Shown here one piece after another: positions 9,322-21,558 of a DNA stretch of 26,191 nucleotides (positions are counted from its first letter, which is position 1; each line of letters starts with the position of its first letter). The DNA is from a virus: the IMG/VR virus record IMGVR_UViG_3300044984_001389, positions 1 to 26,191 of that record; one strand, written 5' to 3'. Under the pieces are notes generated by a model, which was given only the letters and a program-made list of their open reading frames with translations, did no database searches and had not been told where the DNA came from. Both the position numbers and the translations under genes were made by a program.

Positions 9322-10491
9322 TTAGCTAAATTTAACGTTACCGTTAGTAATACCAACACGACCTAAATAGTCAGCAGCGTTACCTAAAGATGATGCAGTG
9401 TTAGACAATTCAACATAACCATAACGTGTCATGAACGATACAACTGGTTCAAATGTTGATGGATCTAAAACAACACCTGATGACATCAAAGGAATGTAAG
9501 GGCAATAAAACGCAGGAGCGTCTGATTCTGAACCACCTTTGTAACCAATTAAGATTGAAGTGCTGTCTTGTGCATAGCTGTTTACATACACTTTCAATGA
9601 GTTGTTTAATGTACCAACAAATTTTGTGTTAGTCGGAGCTTCAAAAGTACCTTCAGTTGTACGAGCAAAAGCTGAAGTAGTAGCTGATTGTAAAATTGTT
9701 AATGCAAATGGTGATACAACAGCATAGTTACCAGCACCACGACGTGTACGTTGTGCAATCAAGTTGCTTACACGGTTGATTTGAACAGCTAATGCAGCGT
9801 GTTCGTCACCAACAAAAGTTGCTGTACCAGAAACTGCAGCTTGGTTATAAGTTTCAACGTCTGAACCAGCTAAAGTTAATAATGAAGTGATAATTTCTTG
9901 ATCAATCTCAGCAGTAATTTCTTGAGCCAACGCAGCCATAATTTCTGCTTCTACATCAATACCTTGTTGTGATTGAGCATCTTGAGCAGATTCAAATGTC
10001 CAGCGAGCTGACAACTTACGTGTTTTAGCTTCAACTGTTTGTTTCAAGATTTGAATACTCATTTTTTTGCCTGGTTGTCCTTCTAAAGTTGCAGTTGAAG
10101 CTGCTTTAGCATTAGAAGTTGAATCATTACCTGAATAAGCTTCTGCAATTTTGAATGGACTCAATGCTTCTTCGCCTGCTACAGTACTATTTGAACTGTC
10201 TGCATAACGAACACGCAATGTGTGGATTTGGCCAACTGGGCCAGTCATTGGTTGTACACCTACCAATTCGTTAGCAATAACGGTTGGCATTACACGTCTA
10301 ATTACTGGTAAAATTACACGGTTTAAAGTTGCAACGTTTCCAGCAGAAGTAGCACCAGCAGTAGGAGATTCTATCAAATACTTACGTGTATTTTCAAGTG
10401 TTACGCCCATTACTGATTTTTTTGTACCTGACAAGCCTTCTAAAAGTGCTTGTTTTGTTTCTGCCCAACGGCCATTAAGTAGTTCTGACAT
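9322..10491 (-). CDS. 23: Major capsid protein gp23
   Basis: The gene encodes 389 residues of the T4 gp23 capsid family (HK97-type fold). Family-typical stretches include residues ~40-95 (GNVATLNRVILPVIRRVMP, then PMTGPVGQIHTLRVRY), RKLSARWTFESAQD near the middle, and the C-terminal SSGVVLDPSTFEPVVSFMTR and RYGYVELSN. It forms the hexamers of the head shell. It is clearly shorter than T4 gp23 (521 residues), as in distant members of the superfamily. The N-terminal ~41 residues probably form the propeptide: LIE at residues 39-41 fits the hydrophobic-X-Glu cleavage rule of the gp21 protease. A strong AGGAGA lies 7 bases before the ATG. It follows gp22 directly and is followed by a strong terminator, as expected for the most abundant late product. 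No separate gp24 vertex gene is in the window. Confidence 0.95.
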   Translation of the reverse strand: MSELLNGRWAETKQALLEGLSGTKKSVMGVTLENTRKYLIESPTAGATSAGNVATLNRVILPVIRRVMPTVIANELVGVQPMTGPVGQIHTLRVRYADSSNSTVAGEEALSPFKIAEAYSGNDSTSNAKAASTATLEGQPGKKMSIQILKQTVEAKTRKLSARWTFESAQDAQSQQGIDVEAEIMAALAQEITAEIDQEIITSLLTLAGSDVETYNQAAVSGTATFVGDEHAALAVQINRVSNLIAQRTRRGAGNYAVVSPFALTILQSATTSAFARTTEGTFEAPTNTKFVGTLNNSLKVYVNSYAQDSTSILIGYKGGSESDAPAFYCPYIPLMSSGVVLDPSTFEPVVSFMTRYGYVELSNTASSLGNAADYLGRVGITNGNVKFS

Positions 10492-10509: not shown

Positions 10510-11604
10510 TTATAGACCAGCGAGGCGGCGGATATCAATAATGTTTGATTCATCTTCGCTGCTACGGGTGGTTGTGGAAACAATCTTGTTTCCGGTTATT
10601 TCTTTAGCTTCTACAAGAGCTTGTCTTTTTTGTGGTGCTTGTTTACCAGAAATTACTGCTGGTAAATATTTTTCAAAACTTTCGTTAAGTTTTGAAGTTT
10701 TTACACTCGTCATCAATTCGCCCATAATAGAGCGTTGTTCAGCGTTTAGAGGAGCCAACAATTCGCTCATAACTGCTTTTCTTTCTTGCGACTCTTTCAA
10801 CGCAACGATTTCTGCTTGTTTGCTTTCTAATATTTGGTCAGCTTTGACAACTGCATGTGCAGCTTCATTGATGGCTAAATTTTTCATGTCTATGACTTTG
10901 AGCAATTTTGCAGTTTCGGATTTTTCATTCAAGTAGCTCGATTGATATTCAGCAGCAAACGCTTCGAATAATTTACGACCAAAATCTGTACGACGAGCTG
11001 ATTCAATATCTTCTTTTAATGAAGTAATTTCAGCGTTTAAGGTTTGACCTACAACACTTTCAACCATTACTGCTGCGCGTTTTACAAATTCTTGTTTTAC
11101 TCGTTTGATTTCTTGACGACCTTCACGAATCAGACGAACTTTTGATTCGGCTACGTCTTTTTTATCTTTATAGAACTCTGCAATTTCTTGTGCAAGAGCT
11201 TCTACTACGAAGTGTTCTAATGTGCCAAATTTATTTGCCATTGACATTTGATCTTCGTGTAATTCTTTAACTTCTTGTGCTAGTTGACGGGTAACAAATG
11301 TGTTAACAGTCTTTGCGCTTTCGGTCATTTTTCTAGCAAATTTAACTTTCATTTCTGCTAGTTGTTTACGATCATCTACAAATTCGCTAAGTTCACTTGA
11401 TAGTTGTTCAGAGATCATACGATCTACTGCTTCAACCATAGTGTTTTTATCATGCTCATATTTTTGAGCAAATTCTTCGCGTAGTTGTTGAGCAACCTGA
11501 TTACGGTTTTCTACAATGCGTGATTCCCATGCTTGCTCAATAGACTCTTTGATCTCTGCCGAAACCACATTGTTTTCAAATAAAGTTTTTAGTGCATCCA
11601 ACAT
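10510..11604 (-). CDS. 22: Prohead core scaffold protein gp22
   Basis: The gene encodes 364 residues, strongly charged and predicted almost entirely alpha-helical or coiled-coil (long heptad-like stretches such as EQAWESRIVENRNQVAQQLR and KLLEVID-type helices), matching the T4 gp22 scaffold in size and position. It forms the internal core around which the gp23 shell assembles and is then degraded by gp21; several L/I-X-E sites suitable for that are visible (for example LREE, LIRE). The short C-terminal tail ends in RRLAGL. A CAGGAGAA site precedes the ATG, 16 bases after the gp21 stop. It lies directly between protease and capsid genes, the standard order in T4-type phages. Confidence 0.92.
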   Translation of the reverse strand: MLDALKTLFENNVVSAEIKESIEQAWESRIVENRNQVAQQLREEFAQKYEHDKNTMVEAVDRMISEQLSSELSEFVDDRKQLAEMKVKFARKMTESAKTVNTFVTRQLAQEVKELHEDQMSMANKFGTLEHFVVEALAQEIAEFYKDKKDVAESKVRLIREGRQEIKRVKQEFVKRAAVMVESVVGQTLNAEITSLKEDIESARRTDFGRKLFEAFAAEYQSSYLNEKSETAKLLKVIDMKNLAINEAAHAVVKADQILESKQAEIVALKESQERKAVMSELLAPLNAEQRSIMGELMTSVKTSKLNESFEKYLPAVISGKQAPQKRQALVEAKEITGNKIVSTTTRSSEDESNIIDIRRLAGL

Positions 11605-11620: not shown

Positions 11621-12247
11621 CTATTGGAGTTTGCTTATTATATTCAATAAGCTCTCTTTGAGGTATTTTTGCGCTTGAGGATCTCCTCTAACTTCTTCCG
11701 CTATGCGAAAAGATTTAAGTCCACCTTTTGTATTCATTAGGTGTTCATAAATTGGCGTAGGGTAAGCTCCTGGTGCGCTAGGTTGAGCTACCATATCAAC
11801 TGTGATAATCTCAAAATCTGAAACTTCACCGGATCCGCTATCACTAACGTTACCAGATCCGCGTGAACTGACGCCGAGTTTCACTCCGCTTTCTAACATT
11901 GTTTTGATTAATTGTCCCATTGGTGTTGGTAAAATTTTAAGTTTACCGTAACCATTTGGACCTTCCATCCACATGTTAGTTATCATATGTGAAACTCGGT
12001 CTAAGTTTATTTTTAGATCATCTGGATGATCTACTTCTCCGAGCACAGAATAACCGTTTTGAATTTGATCGTTGAGGGTTTTAACAGCCTTGCTAATCTC
12101 GCTCACAGGATACACACGTTGATTTGCGTTACGGATACCGCCTTGTATACAAATACCGCTCATATACAAACTTTTTCCTTCCTTGTCGTCGGATTCAACG
12201 ATCATTTGTGCTTCGTTGAAGCTAAGGTTTTCTCGGAGATGTAACAT
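11621..12247 (-). CDS. 21: Prohead core protease gp21
   Basis: The gene encodes 208 residues of the T4 gp21 prohead serine protease family, which shares its fold with herpesvirus assemblin. The expected landmarks are present: GGIRNANQRVYP (residues 36-47), EVDHPD with catalytic His74, and GVSSRG (residues 125-130) carrying the catalytic serine, followed by DFEIITVDMVAQPSAPGA. It cleaves scaffold, capsid and internal proteins after hydrophobic-X-Glu during head maturation and then itself. Its size matches T4 gp21 (212 residues). The start ATG sits three bases after the stop of the gp67-like gene with only a weak ribosome site (AGAAAG), which suggests translational coupling. The C-terminal region contains likely self-cleavage sites such as IAEE. 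Confidence 0.95.
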   Translation of the reverse strand: MLHLRENLSFNEAQMIVESDDKEGKSLYMSGICIQGGIRNANQRVYPVSEISKAVKTLNDQIQNGYSVLGEVDHPDDLKINLDRVSHMITNMWMEGPNGYGKLKILPTPMGQLIKTMLESGVKLGVSSRGSGNVSDSGSGEVSDFEIITVDMVAQPSAPGAYPTPIYEHLMNTKGGLKSFRIAEEVRGDPQAQKYLKESLLNIISKLQ

Positions 12248-15225: not shown

Positions 15226-18200
15226 TTATGCGTATCTATTGCCAGTTATACTTTTTGTTGCTTGGATTTGTTTGCGGCTATTATTGCTTATATCATCTGT
15301 ATGCTGAGCCATTTGTCCCATAGTCTTATTTAACTGCATTAACGCATCGTGCAAATCTTTTAATGTTACGTCTTTAGCAACAGGTGCTTGCACTACTGGA
15401 GGTGCAACTGGTTGTGGCTGCGCAGCCGGTTGTGGCTGCTCAGCTGGTTTTGGTGGAGTAACATCTTGCGCAGTTATTCCTGATCTGTCTGGTGTTGTAT
15501 CTTTAATTTGAGCATGTGCGCTTTTAACTTCAGCTGATTTGCGAGAATTATAGTCATCAAATCGTTCAATGCCAAACTTTTTATACATTGCATCAACATG
15601 TTGGTCTTCCTTAGACTTAGGTTTAACTATTGCTGGAGGTATAACTGGTTTTTCTGGTTCTTTTAAAGTAGCAGTAGCATCTTTTAATTTAGGTTTTTCT
15701 GATTCTTTTACAGTAGTGTTAGCATCTTTTAATTTAGCCTTTTCTGCTTCGGCTTCTGCTCGAGTAGTAGCACCTTTGTCTAATTTTTTTATTGCGGCTG
15801 CTACTTTTGCTTGTTCTTCAGGTGTTTGATTATTAGGGTTAGATTTTACATCCTCTATAGCTACAGCAGGTTTATCATCTTTAAAGAAATCTGATATCGA
15901 CGATCCGGCTTTACTAAATGTATCCGAAATTGTATCAAAGAATCCTTTATCTTCTGTCTTTTCTTCAGGAGCTGCAACATCAGTAGGTAACTTAAGACCA
16001 TTAATTGAATCTGCAATTGCATTAGATTTATCTTTTAAGCTATCCACTGCTGATGCAGGTTTTACATCAGTTGCAGATTGATCTACGTTAATAGGTTTAA
16101 TGTCTGGAAACATTTTGTTTTCGTTAAACATTTTTGACATTGTGTCACTAGCAGACTCAAAGACGTTACTAATATCTGGTGTTTTAAACATGTCCTGCGC
16201 TTTAGCAAATATGTCTTCATGACTTAACATTGGCGCGTTGTTAACACCATGTAACTGTTCACTTATGTTAGCAAACGGTTTAGAAAAGTCAGGCTGTAGT
16301 GTTTTAGATGCAACATGTTTGGCAATTTCTTCAGGATTTACAAAAGGCGTTGCGTTAGTGTCAATACCAAATTTAGTTTTTTCGTCTTTTTTAACTTCAT
16401 CGGGTTTTAATGCAGGTTTTGCAACTTTTGATTCTGCATCCATCCTAGTATTATAATCTTTAAACGTTTCAAGACCAAACTTTTTATACATGTCTTTTAC
16501 ATGTGCATCTTCTTTAGTATCTGCAGGTTTTTTAAGATCATCAGTTTTAGGTTTTTCTGGTTCTTTTTCTTTATATCTTCCGGAGTTTTTCTGTCTTTCA
16601 ATTTCTGCTTTTTGTGCTTCAATTGCTTCTGGACTATTATCTACTTTGCCAATACCTTCTTGAGATCTTTTATCTGCAGCATCTTTTTCTTCTTGCGAAA
16701 TTTCTTCGTATGTTACGTTACCTTTTGCAAACGCTGGTTTATCATCTTTGAATAATCCAGATATCGATGACCCAACTTTGCCAAACGCATCCGACACAGA
16801 ATCAAAGAAGCCTTTTTCTTCTTTTTTCTCTTCAACTTTTTCAGGAGCTTTAGGTTGTTCTTTAGTTTGTTCTTTTTTCTCTATACCGTCAACTTTTAAT
16901 GCACCAAAAAGTTTTTTGTTAAGTTCTTCTGTTGATTTAATTGGATCAATATCTTTAAATCCAGCTTTTGCAGTTATTATTGCATGCTGTTGCTGCTGTT
17001 CAATAAACGTTTTACTTTGTTGATAATCTTTAATTTTTGCAATAGCAGTATTTTCAGCATTAATTGCATCGGCTTTTTGCTGATCAGTAGTTGCATCTTT
17101 ATGAGCCTTAATTGCTTTTTCTAAATCCACCCCTGCAGGACCAAGAGATGCCATTTTTTCAGCACCTTCTTTAGTTCTAATACCGCCTGTTTGAATTTCA
17201 CTAGTTACTGTTTCAATAGTCTTAGATAATGCTGCAAATTTATCTTCAACAGGTTTAGTTTCTGCAGGTTTAACTTCTTCTTTTTTAGGTTCTTCTTTTT
17301 TAGTGTCAGTTGGTTTAACTTCTTCTTTTTTAGGTTCTTCTTTTTTAGTGTCAGTTGGTTTAACTTCTTCTTTTTTAGTATCAGTTGGTTTAACTGCAAC
17401 TTTTTCCATAACTTTAGCAGTATGCTCAGAAAGATTTTTTAACGCTGGTTCAAAATTAATGTTTTTAAGTTTATCAGCAACTTCACCTAGTGATTTAGTA
17501 ACATCTTTCATTTGAGTAGTAGCGGCAGTAAATGTTTTGTTAATTTCAGACATTTGAGGAGACGCTGCATTCGCTTGTGTAGCAACGGTATTCTTAACAT
17601 CTTCAAAATTTAATGCGGGTAATTCTGACGAAGTAGCTGCTGTATTTTTCATATCAGGTTTCATTTGTTCTGATATGCTGTTAAACAATCTATTCATTTG
17701 TGATTCGTTAGCAACTAACTCTTTACCATGTAACTCTACTAATTCACCATTTGGGTCAAAAGATTCAAACATATCTTTAAATCCACCACTTCCGCTAATA
17801 AAGCTTTCAAATGATGGTGAACCTGTTGAACGTTTTGGCGCAGCACTTGGAAGAGTCTCGTAGTTTTTAGTAGAATCTTGAAACTCTTTACGATTTTTCT
17901 CGTATGCATCGGCTAGCTTTCCGGCATCAAACGGAAGTGCTTTTACAATAGCATCACCAATTTCTTTTCCAATTGCTGCAGGAGTTGCTTCTGCTTGTGT
18001 TCTAGATCTAAGTGCTTCGGTAAGTTTTGATTCTGCTCCAATTACTTCATTAGTTTCTTTTACAAGTCCGTTAAATGCACTGCCGGTGCCGGCAGCAATG
18101 TCTTTTAATACGCTGTCAGCTTGGTTTATAGTTTGGCCAAGTTCGCCACCTTTAATCTTTTCGCCTTTTTCGTCAACACCCTTTCTATCTAATTTAGCCG

Positions 18201-19416
18201 ATTCATACAGCATATTTCTTGCAGTACTTGCATCAATGGTGTTGCCTTTGTTTTTTTCTTCGTCTATCTTAGCATTGATTTTTTGTAATTCGAGATTACC
18301 GGTATACATTTCTCTAGTTTTATCAGCAGCTGCACCGGTAGCAAAAACACCCATTTGCTTATACGAAGTAGAATTTTGAACTTCGGCAAATTTACCTAGA
18401 AATTCTTCATTTTGCTTTTGCGAAGCTAGCCTAGCTTCGGGAGAATTAGCTTCTGCAGATGCTCGAGCTGCTTTTAAAAGCTCTGGCCCAGCATCTCCCA
18501 TGCCAGCAATAGTAGCAGCTCCGTCATTAGTTCGTAGGCCACCGGTAAATTCTTCAGTAAATGCATCTTTAACTGCCTGTGGCGCGTTAGCCATTTGATT
18601 CATGGCTTCTTTATATCGCTCTTGAGCCTCTGGATCCATCATAGATAACGCCATCTGAGTTGATGCTTTTTCAGATTGTTTTTTTAAGTTAGCTTCTTGT
18701 TCCTTTCTAGATATCCCAGAAACTCGAGTGTTTTCATCCATTGCTGCAGCCATGCGCATGGCAGATTCAATTGCGTTTTGTTTTGCTGTTTGTTCAGATA
18801 AGTCTTTGCCTTGATTAAACGCTAAAGACGCTTCTGTAATTTGATTAAGTTCGTCGGTTGAGACACCAAGTTGTTTTAATCTAGAGCCTAACTGAGATTC
18901 TTGTAATCCTTTTGCAATTTCTAAAAAGTTTTGTTGGGTTTTATTAGCGTTTGAGCCAGCACCTTCTAGTTCACGCGTAGAATCACGAAGCATATCATTA
19001 TATTCGTTATGCGTCATCCTTGCGCCTTTAACGGCTTTGTCAAATTCCCCTAAATTGTTGCCCCAATCAGCACCGTACTTTACAGATTCTTTATTAGACT
19101 TGTTAACATCAAGTACAGCGTTTCCAAAATCTCCAGCAATTTTTCCTAACGCGGTACCAAGTGCGCCGCCGCTTTTTTGCAAAGTACCGGTTAGTAAGTT
19201 TAACCCATCGGATGCAGTTGCTGATCCTTCCCAAACTTTTCGTAGTGCGCCAGACACGTTACCTGAAATATCAGCAATGTCACCAAACATGTTTGATTTG
19301 CCGTCACTACTACCACTACTACTGCTAGCAGTAGTAGACGTGTTAGCACGCGGATTTCGATTGTTTTCTCTGAGTAAATTTCTTATTTCTTCAAGTAGTT
19401 CGCGTTCATCAGCCAT
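15226..19416 (-). CDS. Giant virion protein, possible tape-measure or ejected protein (1396 residues)
   Basis: The gene encodes 1396 mostly hydrophilic, helix-rich residues with no enzyme domain recognised. The N-terminus (LLEEIRNLLREN) is a short coiled coil; residues ~35-130 are Gly/Ala/Ser-rich. Residues ~555-570 carry NGELVELHGKELVANES, a short LHG-(K/Q)E motif common in phage tape-measure and tail proteins. Two internal duplications are visible: residues ~292-360 and ~744-812 (GG(L/I)RT..GA...A..G.AG..L), and ~869-1000 with ~1158-1300 (GFFD..SD.F.K.GSSIS, KED.HV..MYKKFG). A Lys/Glu/Pro/Thr repeat with the unit KPTDTKKEE lies at ~674-727. The ATG has AGGA upstream and a late promoter at 19459-19466, divergent from gp26. 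A tape-measure or head-internal role is inference; its length is over twice T4 gp29. Confidence 0.7.
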   Translation of the reverse strand: MADERELLEEIRNLLRENNRNPRANTSTTASSSSGSSDGKSNMFGDIADISGNVSGALRKVWEGSATASDGLNLLTGTLQKSGGALGTALGKIAGDFGNAVLDVNKSNKESVKYGADWGNNLGEFDKAVKGARMTHNEYNDMLRDSTRELEGAGSNANKTQQNFLEIAKGLQESQLGSRLKQLGVSTDELNQITEASLAFNQGKDLSEQTAKQNAIESAMRMAAAMDENTRVSGISRKEQEANLKKQSEKASTQMALSMMDPEAQERYKEAMNQMANAPQAVKDAFTEEFTGGLRTNDGAATIAGMGDAGPELLKAARASAEANSPEARLASQKQNEEFLGKFAEVQNSTSYKQMGVFATGAAADKTREMYTGNLELQKINAKIDEEKNKGNTIDASTARNMLYESAKLDRKGVDEKGEKIKGGELGQTINQADSVLKDIAAGTGSAFNGLVKETNEVIGAESKLTEALRSRTQAEATPAAIGKEIGDAIVKALPFDAGKLADAYEKNRKEFQDSTKNYETLPSAAPKRSTGSPSFESFISGSGGFKDMFESFDPNGELVELHGKELVANESQMNRLFNSISEQMKPDMKNTAATSSELPALNFEDVKNTVATQANAASPQMSEINKTFTAATTQMKDVTKSLGEVADKLKNINFEPALKNLSEHTAKVMEKVAVKPTDTKKEEVKPTDTKKEEPKKEEVKPTDTKKEEPKKEEVKPAETKPVEDKFAALSKTIETVTSEIQTGGIRTKEGAEKMASLGPAGVDLEKAIKAHKDATTDQQKADAINAENTAIAKIKDYQQSKTFIEQQQQHAIITAKAGFKDIDPIKSTEELNKKLFGALKVDGIEKKEQTKEQPKAPEKVEEKKEEKGFFDSVSDAFGKVGSSISGLFKDDKPAFAKGNVTYEEISQEEKDAADKRSQEGIGKVDNSPEAIEAQKAEIERQKNSGRYKEKEPEKPKTDDLKKPADTKEDAHVKDMYKKFGLETFKDYNTRMDAESKVAKPALKPDEVKKDEKTKFGIDTNATPFVNPEEIAKHVASKTLQPDFSKPFANISEQLHGVNNAPMLSHEDIFAKAQDMFKTPDISNVFESASDTMSKMFNENKMFPDIKPINVDQSATDVKPASAVDSLKDKSNAIADSINGLKLPTDVAAPEEKTEDKGFFDTISDTFSKAGSSISDFFKDDKPAVAIEDVKSNPNNQTPEEQAKVAAAIKKLDKGATTRAEAEAEKAKLKDANTTVKESEKPKLKDATATLKEPEKPVIPPAIVKPKSKEDQHVDAMYKKFGIERFDDYNSRKSAEVKSAHAQIKDTTPDRSGITAQDVTPPKPAEQPQPAAQPQPVAPPVVQAPVAKDVTLKDLHDALMQLNKTMGQMAQHTDDISNNSRKQIQATKSITGNRYA
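17260..17397 (-). repeat. In-frame Lys/Glu/Pro/Thr repeat in the giant virion gene
   Basis: Near-identical DNA units reading ACTTCTTCTTTTTTAG on the plus strand alternate with TCAGTTGGTT. They encode KPTDTKKEE three times, two of them spaced by PKKEEV, around residues 674-720. They form an unstructured, charged linker. Confidence 0.8.
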
Positions 19417-19477: not shown

Positions 19478-20302
19478 ATGGCACAAAATCCTTTACAAGA
19501 GTTTTATAGACAACCAAAAATCTTTGTTGCGTTACCATCAAGTGGAATGTACAATAAACTAGGCAGCTTAACAGGTGATGCAACTCACATGCCAATTTTT
19601 AGTATGACAGGAATGGACGAAATTATCGTAAAAACACCAGATGCATTATTGTCAGGTGAAAGTACTGTATCAATTATTAATAGCTGTTGCCCAAATGTTA
19701 AAGATGCATGGGAAATAACGTCGTTAGATACTGATTTATTATTAACAGCAATTCGAATTGCAACATTTGGAAATGTATTAGAAATTATACATACCTGTCC
19801 AAAATGTAGTGAAGAAAATGAATACGATATTGATTTAGGAACAGTAATTGATCATTTTAGCAAATGCAAGTATGATAATACAATTCAACATAACGGATTA
19901 ACAATAAAATTGCAACCGTTAACTTATAGACAAACAACTGAATTTTCACTTCGTAATTTTAAATTGCAACAGCGATTAGTTTCAGCAGGTGCAGAGTCAG
20001 ATGAAAAACAAAAAGAAATCGTTAGTCAGTTATTTAAAGAGTTAGGTGTTATTCAAAATGACATATATTCGGCTAGTGTTGAATCAGTAGATACTGGAAC
20101 TATTGTAGTTACTGAACCTAATTTTATTTTTGAATGGTTAACTAATTGTGACAAAAGTGTGTTTGACAAAATTCGTGATCAATTTAACATTAACAAAGAC
20201 ACTTGGAAAATTCCAGATGTTAGCGTTAAATGTACATCGTGCGGCCATGATTCAAAAGTATCAATTGATTTAGATCAAGCAAATTTTTTCGCTCCCGCCT
20301 AG
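19478..20302 (+). CDS. 26: Baseplate protein of the gp26 family
   Basis: The gene encodes 274 residues resembling the T4 gp26 baseplate family (PF12322-type): N-terminal FYRQPKIFVALPSSGMY, then MPIFSMTGMDEI and KTPDALLSGESTVSIINSC, characteristic of the family in aquatic T4-like phages. In T4, gp26 acts at the baseplate hub. Two cysteine pairs, CPKC at 107-110 and CTSC at 252-255, could form one zinc site joining distant segments. It is one of only two plus-strand genes and diverges from the giant virion gene, recalling T4, where genes 26/25 diverge from the 51-27-28-29 operon. The ribosome site GGAG lies 8 bases before the ATG. The downstream 71-residue gene follows after 5 bases. Confidence 0.82.
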   Translation: MAQNPLQEFYRQPKIFVALPSSGMYNKLGSLTGDATHMPIFSMTGMDEIIVKTPDALLSGESTVSIINSCCPNVKDAWEITSLDTDLLLTAIRIATFGNVLEIIHTCPKCSEENEYDIDLGTVIDHFSKCKYDNTIQHNGLTIKLQPLTYRQTTEFSLRNFKLQQRLVSAGAESDEKQKEIVSQLFKELGVIQNDIYSASVESVDTGTIVVTEPNFIFEWLTNCDKSVFDKIRDQFNINKDTWKIPDVSVKCTSCGHDSKVSIDLDQANFFAPA

Positions 20303-20307
20303 TTGGG

Positions 20308-20523
20308 ATGTCGCGCAGCGACATTGGTGATTATCTCACTAGGCTAGACAATGATGTTAAACGATTTAAACTTGAATTATATAGAATATGTTGGTACATG
20401 AGGGGTGGTATAGGTATTAACGATCTCCTATATAATTTAGGGATGGAAGATCGTAACATTATGTATGATATAATTAAAGATAATATTGAATTAACTAAAG
20501 TGTCACGTATGCCACTTATGTAA
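20308..20523 (+). CDS. Small partner of gp26 (71 residues), possible tail-assembly chaperone
   Basis: The gene encodes 71 residues, predicted all-helical (DIGDYLTRLDNDVKRFKLEL, then RICWYMRGGIGINDLLYNLG and DIIKDNIELTK). The WYMRGG element with a following helix of the form EDRNIMYDIIKDN is of a type encoded right after gp26 in aquatic T4-like phages; its biochemical role is not established. The ATG lies 5 bases after the gp26 stop, with TTGGG between as the only ribosome signal, so translation is likely coupled to gp26. Small helical proteins encoded behind a tail gene can be assembly chaperones, which is the reason for the tentative name. It ends 3 bases from the convergent 297-residue gene. 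Confidence 0.65.
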   Translation: MSRSDIGDYLTRLDNDVKRFKLELYRICWYMRGGIGINDLLYNLGMEDRNIMYDIIKDNIELTKVSRMPLM

Positions 20524-20536
20524 TTATTATAATAAT
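20523..20536. terminator. AT-only palindrome at the convergent gene junction
   Basis: ATTATTATAATAAT is a perfect 14-bp palindrome covering the ends of the plus-strand 71-residue gene and the minus-strand 297-residue gene. It could act as a weak bidirectional terminator, but it has no GC pairs. Confidence 0.3.
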
Positions 20537-21420
20537 ATCAATTCACCTTTAGCATTTCTTTTAAATCTAGTAGTATCGGTATATCTAGATCCAGGTACAT
20601 TTGTGTTTGCATAACTAGCTGGGTCTACTTCAGGCTCAGCAGGTCCTGGTTGTACAGGTGCATTTGGATCAGTTGGTTTAGTAGGTCCTGGTTGTACAGG
20701 TGCATTTGGATCAGTTGGTTTAGTAGGATCTGGTTGTACAGGTGCAGTTGGATCAGCTGGTTTATCTTGACCTGTCAATTCTGCAATTTCTTCTTTTGAC
20801 ATTTTAACTACTTTAGCTACCATTTCTTTAACGTCATTTATTGAAATTTTAAGTGCGTTCCACCCAATAAATTCCATTCCTTTTTCATTATTCAGTACCG
20901 ATGCACAAATAAGTTTTGCAATTATATCGCGACCTTTATCAGTATTAATATAATACATTAATGCTAGGGTAAGTTCTGGAGAGAAAGCTTTAATTATTGG
21001 ACCAAAAACATAACCTACTAGCGGCACTGCGCTAACTAAATATCCAATAGCAGTTATTGCTGCTTGGCCAACAAGCCGTACTGCCATTCCTGACGCAATT
21101 AGTGATACCATCATACCCATCTCGTATTGGTGACGTTGGTCAAATTGGTCTTGTGTAATTTTTTTTGAAGCTAGCTGTTTATCATAGATTAGCATGTTGC
21201 TGTTGTAGTTCCAAATTGGCACTCCTATAGCTCCTAACAATTTAAGAATAGCTACACCGCCTGTTCGTATTCTGCTACCAACTTTTATAGATTTATCAAG
21301 TCTACCGCCAGTAGGTGCCATGTAATTTTTTATTGCAGTAGTTAGACCTGATGAGAACAAATCATCAGTAAATCCTTCATTTAAATTTTGGTGTGGTTGA
21401 ATAATTTCACGTACTTTCAT
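20527..21420 (-). CDS. Putative internal head protein with membrane-active segments (297 residues)
   Basis: The gene encodes 297 residues. The N-terminus MKVREIIQPHQNLNE|GF resembles the capsid-targeting sequences of T4 internal proteins (MKTYQEFIAE|A): short, amphipathic, beginning MK and ending in hydrophobic-X-Glu before a small residue, the gp21 cleavage rule (here LNE at 13-15, then Gly16). Several hydrophobic or amphipathic segments follow (residues ~54-70, 101-117, 119-143, 148-158). A Pro/Asp/Thr-rich repeat with 14-residue period occupies ~222-262, and a basic tail precedes LILL. AAGGA lies before the ATG and a late promoter at 21457-21464 upstream; the unit is late and separately initiated. 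Inference: packaged in the head, trimmed by gp21 and ejected with DNA, acting on the host membrane. It could instead be a membrane protein such as a lysis factor. Confidence 0.6.
   Translation of the reverse strand: MKVREIIQPHQNLNEGFTDDLFSSGLTTAIKNYMAPTGGRLDKSIKVGSRIRTGGVAILKLLGAIGVPIWNYNSNMLIYDKQLASKKITQDQFDQRHQYEMGMMVSLIASGMAVRLVGQAAITAIGYLVSAVPLVGYVFGPIIKAFSPELTLALMYYINTDKGRDIIAKLICASVLNNEKGMEFIGWNALKISINDVKEMVAKVVKMSKEEIAELTGQDKPADPTAPVQPDPTKPTDPNAPVQPGPTKPTDPNAPVQPGPAEPEVDPASYANTNVPGSRYTDTTRFKRNAKGELILL
20642..20767 (-). repeat. 42-bp tandem repeat in the putative internal protein gene
   Basis: Three consecutive 42-bp units (20642-20683, 20684-20725, 20726-20767), the first two identical and the third diverged. 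In frame they encode the 14-residue unit PTDPNAPVQPGPTK. This makes a rigid, proline-rich linker. Confidence 0.88.
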
Positions 21421-21456: not shown

Positions 21457-21464
21457 TATTTATT
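21457..21464 (-). promoter_or_regulatory. T4-type late promoter for the putative internal head protein
   Basis: The minus strand reads AATAAATA followed by TTCAT, one base off consensus, in a strongly AT-rich stretch. Predicted start is near 21451, giving a leader of about 30 bases with AAAAGGA. Confidence 0.6.
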
Positions 21465-21483
21465 AAAAAATATATTTCATATT

Positions 21484-21506
21484 AAAAGATGAACTAACGT
21501 TCATCT
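21484..21506 (-). terminator. Rho-independent terminator of the orphan late transcript
   Basis: The minus strand forms a perfect 8-bp stem (AGATGAAC with GTTCATCT, loop GTTA) followed by TTTAAT. It lies just upstream of the late promoter of the 297-residue gene, separating the two units. Confidence 0.75.
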
Positions 21507-21558
21507 GTATTTCGCTATCGCTCAATACTATTCTCTCTAACAACAATAATGAAAAAAC

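Follow-up and report, generated by a model that had tools for sequence, protein, structure and literature searches.

The window, that is the whole stretch of 26,191 nucleotides analysed here, is a 26-kb record of a T4-related jumbo phage. Its major capsid protein (MCP) is 66-70% identical to the MCPs of Phosso, PA5oct and GAP32, and its head genes follow the order MCP, gp22-position, gp21, core-position, gp67-position and portal, which is also the order in RaK2 and PBECO4. The target gene is an ORF of 297 codons on the minus strand with an ATG start and the N-terminus MKVREIIQPHQNLNEGF. A gp26-like hub gene and an ORF of 71 aa face it tail to tail; on its other side there are RNase H, a PDDEXK nuclease, a homing-endonuclease-like gene and gp46. 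A protein of 1396 aa is encoded between the portal and the hub (15226-19416, minus strand). It has no Pfam match, its relatives are 641-1396 aa long and differ strongly in sequence, and its counterpart in RaK2 is annotated as tape-measure-like. Genes and features in window coordinates are:

20527..21420, minus strand: candidate internal head cargo protein, 297 aa (ORF; family found by synteny beside the hub gene)
21376..21420, minus strand: putative capsid-targeting propeptide, residues 1-15 (MKVREIIQPHQNLNE), with the predicted gp21 cut before Gly16 (tag counts and site statistics)
21073..21276, minus strand: predicted long helical hairpin, residues 49-116, the best-predicted part (AF2 models)
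20983..21111, minus strand: hydrophobic region, residues 104-146, of intermediate hydrophobicity
20641..20764, minus strand: Pro-rich linker with three copies of a 14-residue repeat (Tandem Repeats Finder)
20533..20565, minus strand: predicted C-terminal beta hairpin, residues 286-296 (AF2 models)
21457..21463, minus strand: late promoter motif ATAAATA
21487..21529, minus strand: two-hairpin element preceding the late promoter; its stem covaries and surrounds the conserved loop GAGCG-NN-AGCGAA, and a terminator-like hairpin follows
19478..20302, plus strand: gp26-like baseplate hub protein, the conserved flank of the slot (Pfam T4_baseplate, phrog_150)
20308..20523, plus strand: ORF of 71 aa that separates hub and target and is kept in several relatives (blastp)
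11621..12247, minus strand: gp21-type prohead protease, the presumed processing enzyme (phrog_207, E 1.2e-58)
10510..11604, minus strand: gp22-position scaffold protein, the presumed partner of the tag (lies between gp21 and MCP; phrog_10922)
9322..10491, minus strand: major capsid protein (gp23), whose L-x-E/S or T site, present in 73 MCPs, serves as reference (phrog_138)

Upstream elements and the body of the protein

Late expression of the target gene is supported by its promoter motif. ATAAATA is the late-promoter consensus of the Rak2-like jumbo phage CBB (PMC5259590). In the window it occupies 21463-21457 on the minus strand, with 36 nt from its end to the ATG, and eight of its nine copies in the window are on that strand. 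The motif is found not more than 100 nt upstream of 56 of the 64 members of the family described below, with 5.0 expected, in line with the gene's own late promoter proposed in the first-pass annotation. The exact T4 late promoter TATAAATA was also considered and set aside: it is not enriched in the window (1 found against 4.0 expected), and ATAAATA is the relevant motif.

The two-hairpin element likewise precedes 56 of the 64 family genes. The arms of its stem vary and are mostly complementary (GTTC/GAAC, GCTC/GAGC, GTGTT/AACAC, TGCTT/AAGCA). A stricter search over 1.77 Mb of loci gave 78 copies in 71 loci, usually one in each, and the element is nearly confined to the target slot. It has no match in Rfam. 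It is possibly an undescribed RNA 3'-end element or an exchange cassette. As cited in PMC4503421, the PeSL cassettes of T4-like phages also place a stem-loop and a promoter beside a variable gene, and are reported to mediate gene shuffling; however, their promoter is an early one, whereas the element described here goes with a late promoter and is nearly restricted to one locus.

Two AF2 models, those of the window protein and of its relative L136 (pLDDT 69 and 61, respectively), agree with each other. Both begin with an unstructured N-terminus and the long helical hairpin; short helices then span the hydrophobic region, and after a further helix come the disordered Pro-rich linker and the C-terminal beta hairpin. 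Fold searches returned no match at E <= 0.001. The first reading of the sequence had listed several hydrophobic segments, a proline-rich repeat and a basic tail. The repeat is confirmed, with a 14-residue unit (TKPTDPNAPVQPGP) in 3.0 copies of 42 bp (Tandem Repeats Finder), and a Pro-rich C-terminal part is found in the family. The basic tail is essentially absent by charge, as the last 40 residues have net charge 0 and the last 15 only about +3, and we dropped it as a feature of the protein. The hydrophobic segments reduce mainly to one region at about residues 104-146, which is unlike those of clear membrane proteins.

This region bears on one explanation of the protein, given in the first-pass annotation, namely that it is ejected and membrane-active, with the hydrophobic region inserting into the host inner membrane, e.g., for DNA entry or for blocking superinfection or a membrane-bound defence. 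The hydrophobicity is indeed kept in the family: the maximum KD-19 of the window protein is 1.85, above the other window proteins, and 29 of the 64 members reach a KD-19 of at least 1.6. The family median on a Hessa-type scale is 3.05, compared with 5.28 for the hub proteins and -0.31 for the annotated membrane proteins of CBB, and only two of the 64 members are at or below 1. The family is thus more hydrophobic than its soluble neighbours and well short of the CBB membrane proteins. The helices predicted in the region are also short, 10-16 residues. The data therefore argue only weakly for membrane segments. Since the hydrophobicity is intermediate and the helices are short, the case for action at the host membrane is weak, and we regard this explanation as rather unlikely.

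The family in the slot and its N-terminal tag

The target protein has no match in PHROGs or Pfam. Nothing useful came from tblastn in phages, from a single-protein scan of viral contigs, from PDB sequences or from PADLOC, and tblastn in phages found no cultured relative of the family. A synteny search with the hub protein as bait worked where these direct searches failed. It gave 79 distinct proteins as neighbours of the hub gene, 64 of which were linked to the window protein by jackhmmer, with a membership that is soft at the edges due to the small database. Members are 13-27% identical to the window protein. Between relatives whose hubs share 60-80% identity, the median identity of the bodies is only 29-37%, against 67% for the first nine residues. 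By sequence comparison, the target family is a very divergent one that adjoins the gp26-like hub gene of T4-related jumbo phages; no counterpart of the gene was detected at the same place in RaK2 or PBECO4. A defence annotation of the family was discarded, since it came from one weak match among 45 members.

The beginning of the protein behaves differently from its body. The tag M[KR][ILVF]x[EDQ][ILVF] (MK[VI]x[ED]I-like) opens 61 of the 74 hub-neighbour genes versus 18 of the 2027 other ORFs of the same loci, counted with first-start ORFs left as called and kinship among the relatives ignored. Several of the 13 untagged neighbours look truncated or mis-started. In the window protein the tag runs into L-N-E-G at residues 13-16 (MKVREIIQPHQNLNE/G); this LNE followed by Gly, from which the first-pass annotation started, is present in the ORF translation.

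A site of the type hxE[GAS] occurs within residues 6-30 in 67% of the 64 motif-bearing proteins, versus 2-14% for windows taken from the body; in the shuffled control the figure is 15%, with a maximum of 28%. These residues are nearly independent of the selection, because the 64 proteins were chosen on the first six residues only. Control genes of the same loci fall into two groups. The same stretch carries the site in 67% of gp21, 75% of gp22, 100% of MCP and 45% of core-position proteins, versus 0-2% for the hub, the portal, gp46 and the gp67-position protein. In site frequency the family resembles the head substrates gp21, gp22 and MCP, and therefore behaves like expected gp21 substrates. 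Furthermore, P3 of the MCP sites is Leu in all 73 matched, the same as in LNE/G of the window.

The site takes one of two places, either as I-x-E at residue 9, e.g., MKVYEIISE/G in L168, or as L/V/I-x-E at about residues 12-17, e.g., LNE/G at 15 in the window, LNE/G in L094, LDE/G in L098, and LYE/A at 12 in L002 and at 14 in L136. The late site is found in 14 of the 20 members without the early one versus 17 of the 50 with it (p = 0.008, kinship ignored). Loss of LNE/G from homologues that keep the rest of the protein, which by the first-pass annotation would have spoken against it, was looked for. The exact LNE/G is not fixed; however, a comparable site is mostly kept, being absent from both places in 6 of 70 members. 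The protease-type site moves yet is mostly retained, and not simply by inheritance. Chance appears to be a poor fit as well: a single hxE/G in 297 aa means little alone, but its N-terminal position and the behaviour of the homologues do not fit chance.

It could still be argued that the N-terminus is unrelated to head packing, being merely an inherited family sequence or a signal for association with the tail or baseplate. Common descent does account for part of the N-terminal similarity, as 64 of the 79 slot proteins form one family, and the gene adjoins a baseplate hub gene rather than the head genes, which also counts against our main reading. However, the same N-terminus is found on proteins without detected body similarity, including the gp22-position protein described below; the site moves and is mostly retained; and the controls separate head substrates from tail proteins. 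We consider this explanation improbable. The family and control-gene comparison instead supports the N-terminal targeting propeptide with a gp21-type site claimed on first reading, and it is very probable, judged from sequence, that the target protein bears a short address tag for head packing that can be removed.

The tag on other proteins and in virion data

When viral contigs were searched with an exact DNA pattern encoding MK[IVM]x[ED]II-x-E[AG], at least 119 matches were obtained; among the matches listed, 105 are at the first ATG of an ORF, and 112 have an ORF no shorter than 75 aa. Scrambling the pattern while keeping its composition left 23 matches in a completed scan, 4 of them at a first ATG. 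With the first 12 residues removed, the 112 listed tagged bodies form 48 BLAST clusters, which is an upper bound, since remote relatives are split and some of the bodies belong to the target family. An N-terminus common to otherwise different proteins, which the first-pass annotation had proposed to look for, is thus seen both beside the hub gene and on many bodies in other viral contigs. With tblastn in phages, some of the other tagged proteins gave nothing, and the rest only diverged relatives in cyanophages and a few others.

The tag opens a 313-aa protein located exactly between gp21 and MCP, i.e., at the gp22 position (L175, L200). Recognisable bodies behind it include ClpS (L174), a T7 0.7-like kinase (L234) and a sigma region-4 protein (L181), and further tagged proteins match transglycosylases (L284, L247) and DUF6267. 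The proteins of L174, L181, L234, L247 and L284 are candidates for head-packaged effectors. L278 and L318 have a tandem pair of tagged genes of unequal lengths beside the hub gene.

We give an even chance to a wider reading, in which aquatic T4-like and jumbo phages generally use MK[IV]x[ED]II-x-E/[A/G] as a portable tag for loading the head. Many unrelated proteins (transglycosylases, the ClpS adaptor, the T7 0.7-like kinase, the sigma-region-4 protein and the hypervariable family) would be brought by it first into the head and later into the host. The cargo slot would be exchangeable and equipped with a conserved RNA-like element and a late promoter of its own, and the window gene would be one of its cassettes.

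Two side observations concern single contigs. L318 and L320 are contigs of 335 kb and 153 kb binned as a Neomarinimicrobiota MAG; in both, the phage hub gene is accompanied by a tandem pair of tagged genes (188 aa and 761/745 aa), and they are probably jumbo-phage DNA within a MAG. In L223 (3-806, minus strand) a 268-aa protein starts MRISDFLTE/A, continues LYHYTG and looks ADP-ribosyltransferase-like by eye; it has no PHROGs match.

The virion proteins of CBB, a cultured phage from the same larger group, can be compared by using the published mass spectrometry (MS) list (PMC5259590), with the 250-310 kb stretch of the genome left out. Early hxE[GAS] sites are found in 9 of 55 MS-detected virion proteins versus 14 of 293 other ORFs (p = 0.004), an enrichment that speaks for our main reading. 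The target tag consensus was not seen among the CBB virion proteins, only N-terminal hxE sites, and this counts against it. CBB_298 and CBB_299 (L315 16536-17528) are adjacent MS-detected virion proteins starting MSKQFSKMME/S and MRFSQITE/D, which makes them candidate internal head proteins in a cultured phage.

A protein entering the head may also be structural. Then the target protein would enter the prohead core via the same tag and be cleaved, but would serve core building, head-size control (like gp67, gp68 and IPIII) or an inner body, and would not be a delivered effector. The tag on the gp22-position protein speaks for such a role, as does the inner body of unknown make-up in phAPEC6, a phage of the same larger group (PMC7247149). 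On the other hand, the body diverges very fast compared with the neighbouring hub gene, the window already has gp67, gp21, gp22 and a core-type protein, and the gene lacks a detected counterpart at its place in RaK2 and PBECO4. We regard this role as possible but doubtful. The chances that we give to the alternatives overlap with the main reading, because packaging does not preclude a part in assembly or an action at the membrane.

Proposed route of the cargo and comparison with known systems

The internal proteins (IPs) of T4 are the textbook example of proteins that are packed into the head and reach the host together with the phage DNA. Their targeting sequence, MKTYQEFIAE, is one residue longer than the family tag and ends differently. 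Comparison of the relatives shows that the tag is conserved, that a protease-type site is retained, that the late promoter recurs and that the slot is hypervariable. We consider it quite likely that the target, encoded in this slot, is head cargo of the T4 internal-protein type, with its tag trimmed by gp21. For packaging, cleavage, ejection and function we infer the following course.

At first, the target protein would be synthesised late in infection, and its first ~15 residues would bind the prohead core, so that the protein enters via its tag. The gp21-type protease would then remove residues 1-15 after L-N-E, and residues 16-297 would stay in the head together with the DNA. At the next infection the cargo would most likely be delivered with the DNA; given packaging, the T4 precedent makes delivery into the host likely. 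The edges of the slot are conserved, with the two-hairpin element, the late promoter and the tag on one side and the hub gene on the other, which may leave the body free to diverge fast. Since the body diverges quickly, an anti-host or anti-defence role with a changing host target would suit the delivered protein.

If the tag and the protease site hold, the cargo of uncultured jumbo phages becomes predictable from sequence. Internal head cargo is otherwise hard to recognise because the bodies share nothing. The N-terminal consensus would direct attention to new takeover and anti-defence proteins, and the contents of large jumbo-phage heads would become testable. The kind of mechanism is already known from the capsid-targeting signal (CTS) of T4, but we found no description in the literature of the family, its tag consensus or the upstream two-hairpin element, which are apparently undescribed.

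In T4, targeting needs no more than the first 10 residues of IPIII, the cut by gp21 comes after L/I-x-E, and Alt is ejected, as are many of the IPs (PMC9026906). Like IPI, IPII and IPIII, the window protein has a short M-K propeptide with an L/I-x-E site followed by a small residue, and belongs to a set of variable bodies in a phage with gp21, gp22 and gp23 (PMC9026906, PMC3012670). Unlike them, it lies beside the hub gene, its body is larger by a factor of 2-3 and includes a hydrophobic region and a Pro-rich linker, and no similarity of this body to the three was found (no PHROGs, Pfam or T4-type phage match). Alt, the ADP-ribosyltransferase of T4, is likewise a cleaved, head-packaged and ejected protein of a T4-type phage (PMC9026906), comparable to what is presumed for the window protein; however, neither an ADP-ribosyltransferase nor any other known domain was found in the latter. 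In phiKZ and SPN3US, which belong to a different phage group, the cleavage motif is S/A-x-E instead of the L/I/V-x-E seen here; their ejection and inner-body proteins also have propeptides that are trimmed C-terminal to Glu by a gp21-like protease, at more than one cleavage site (PMC9026906).
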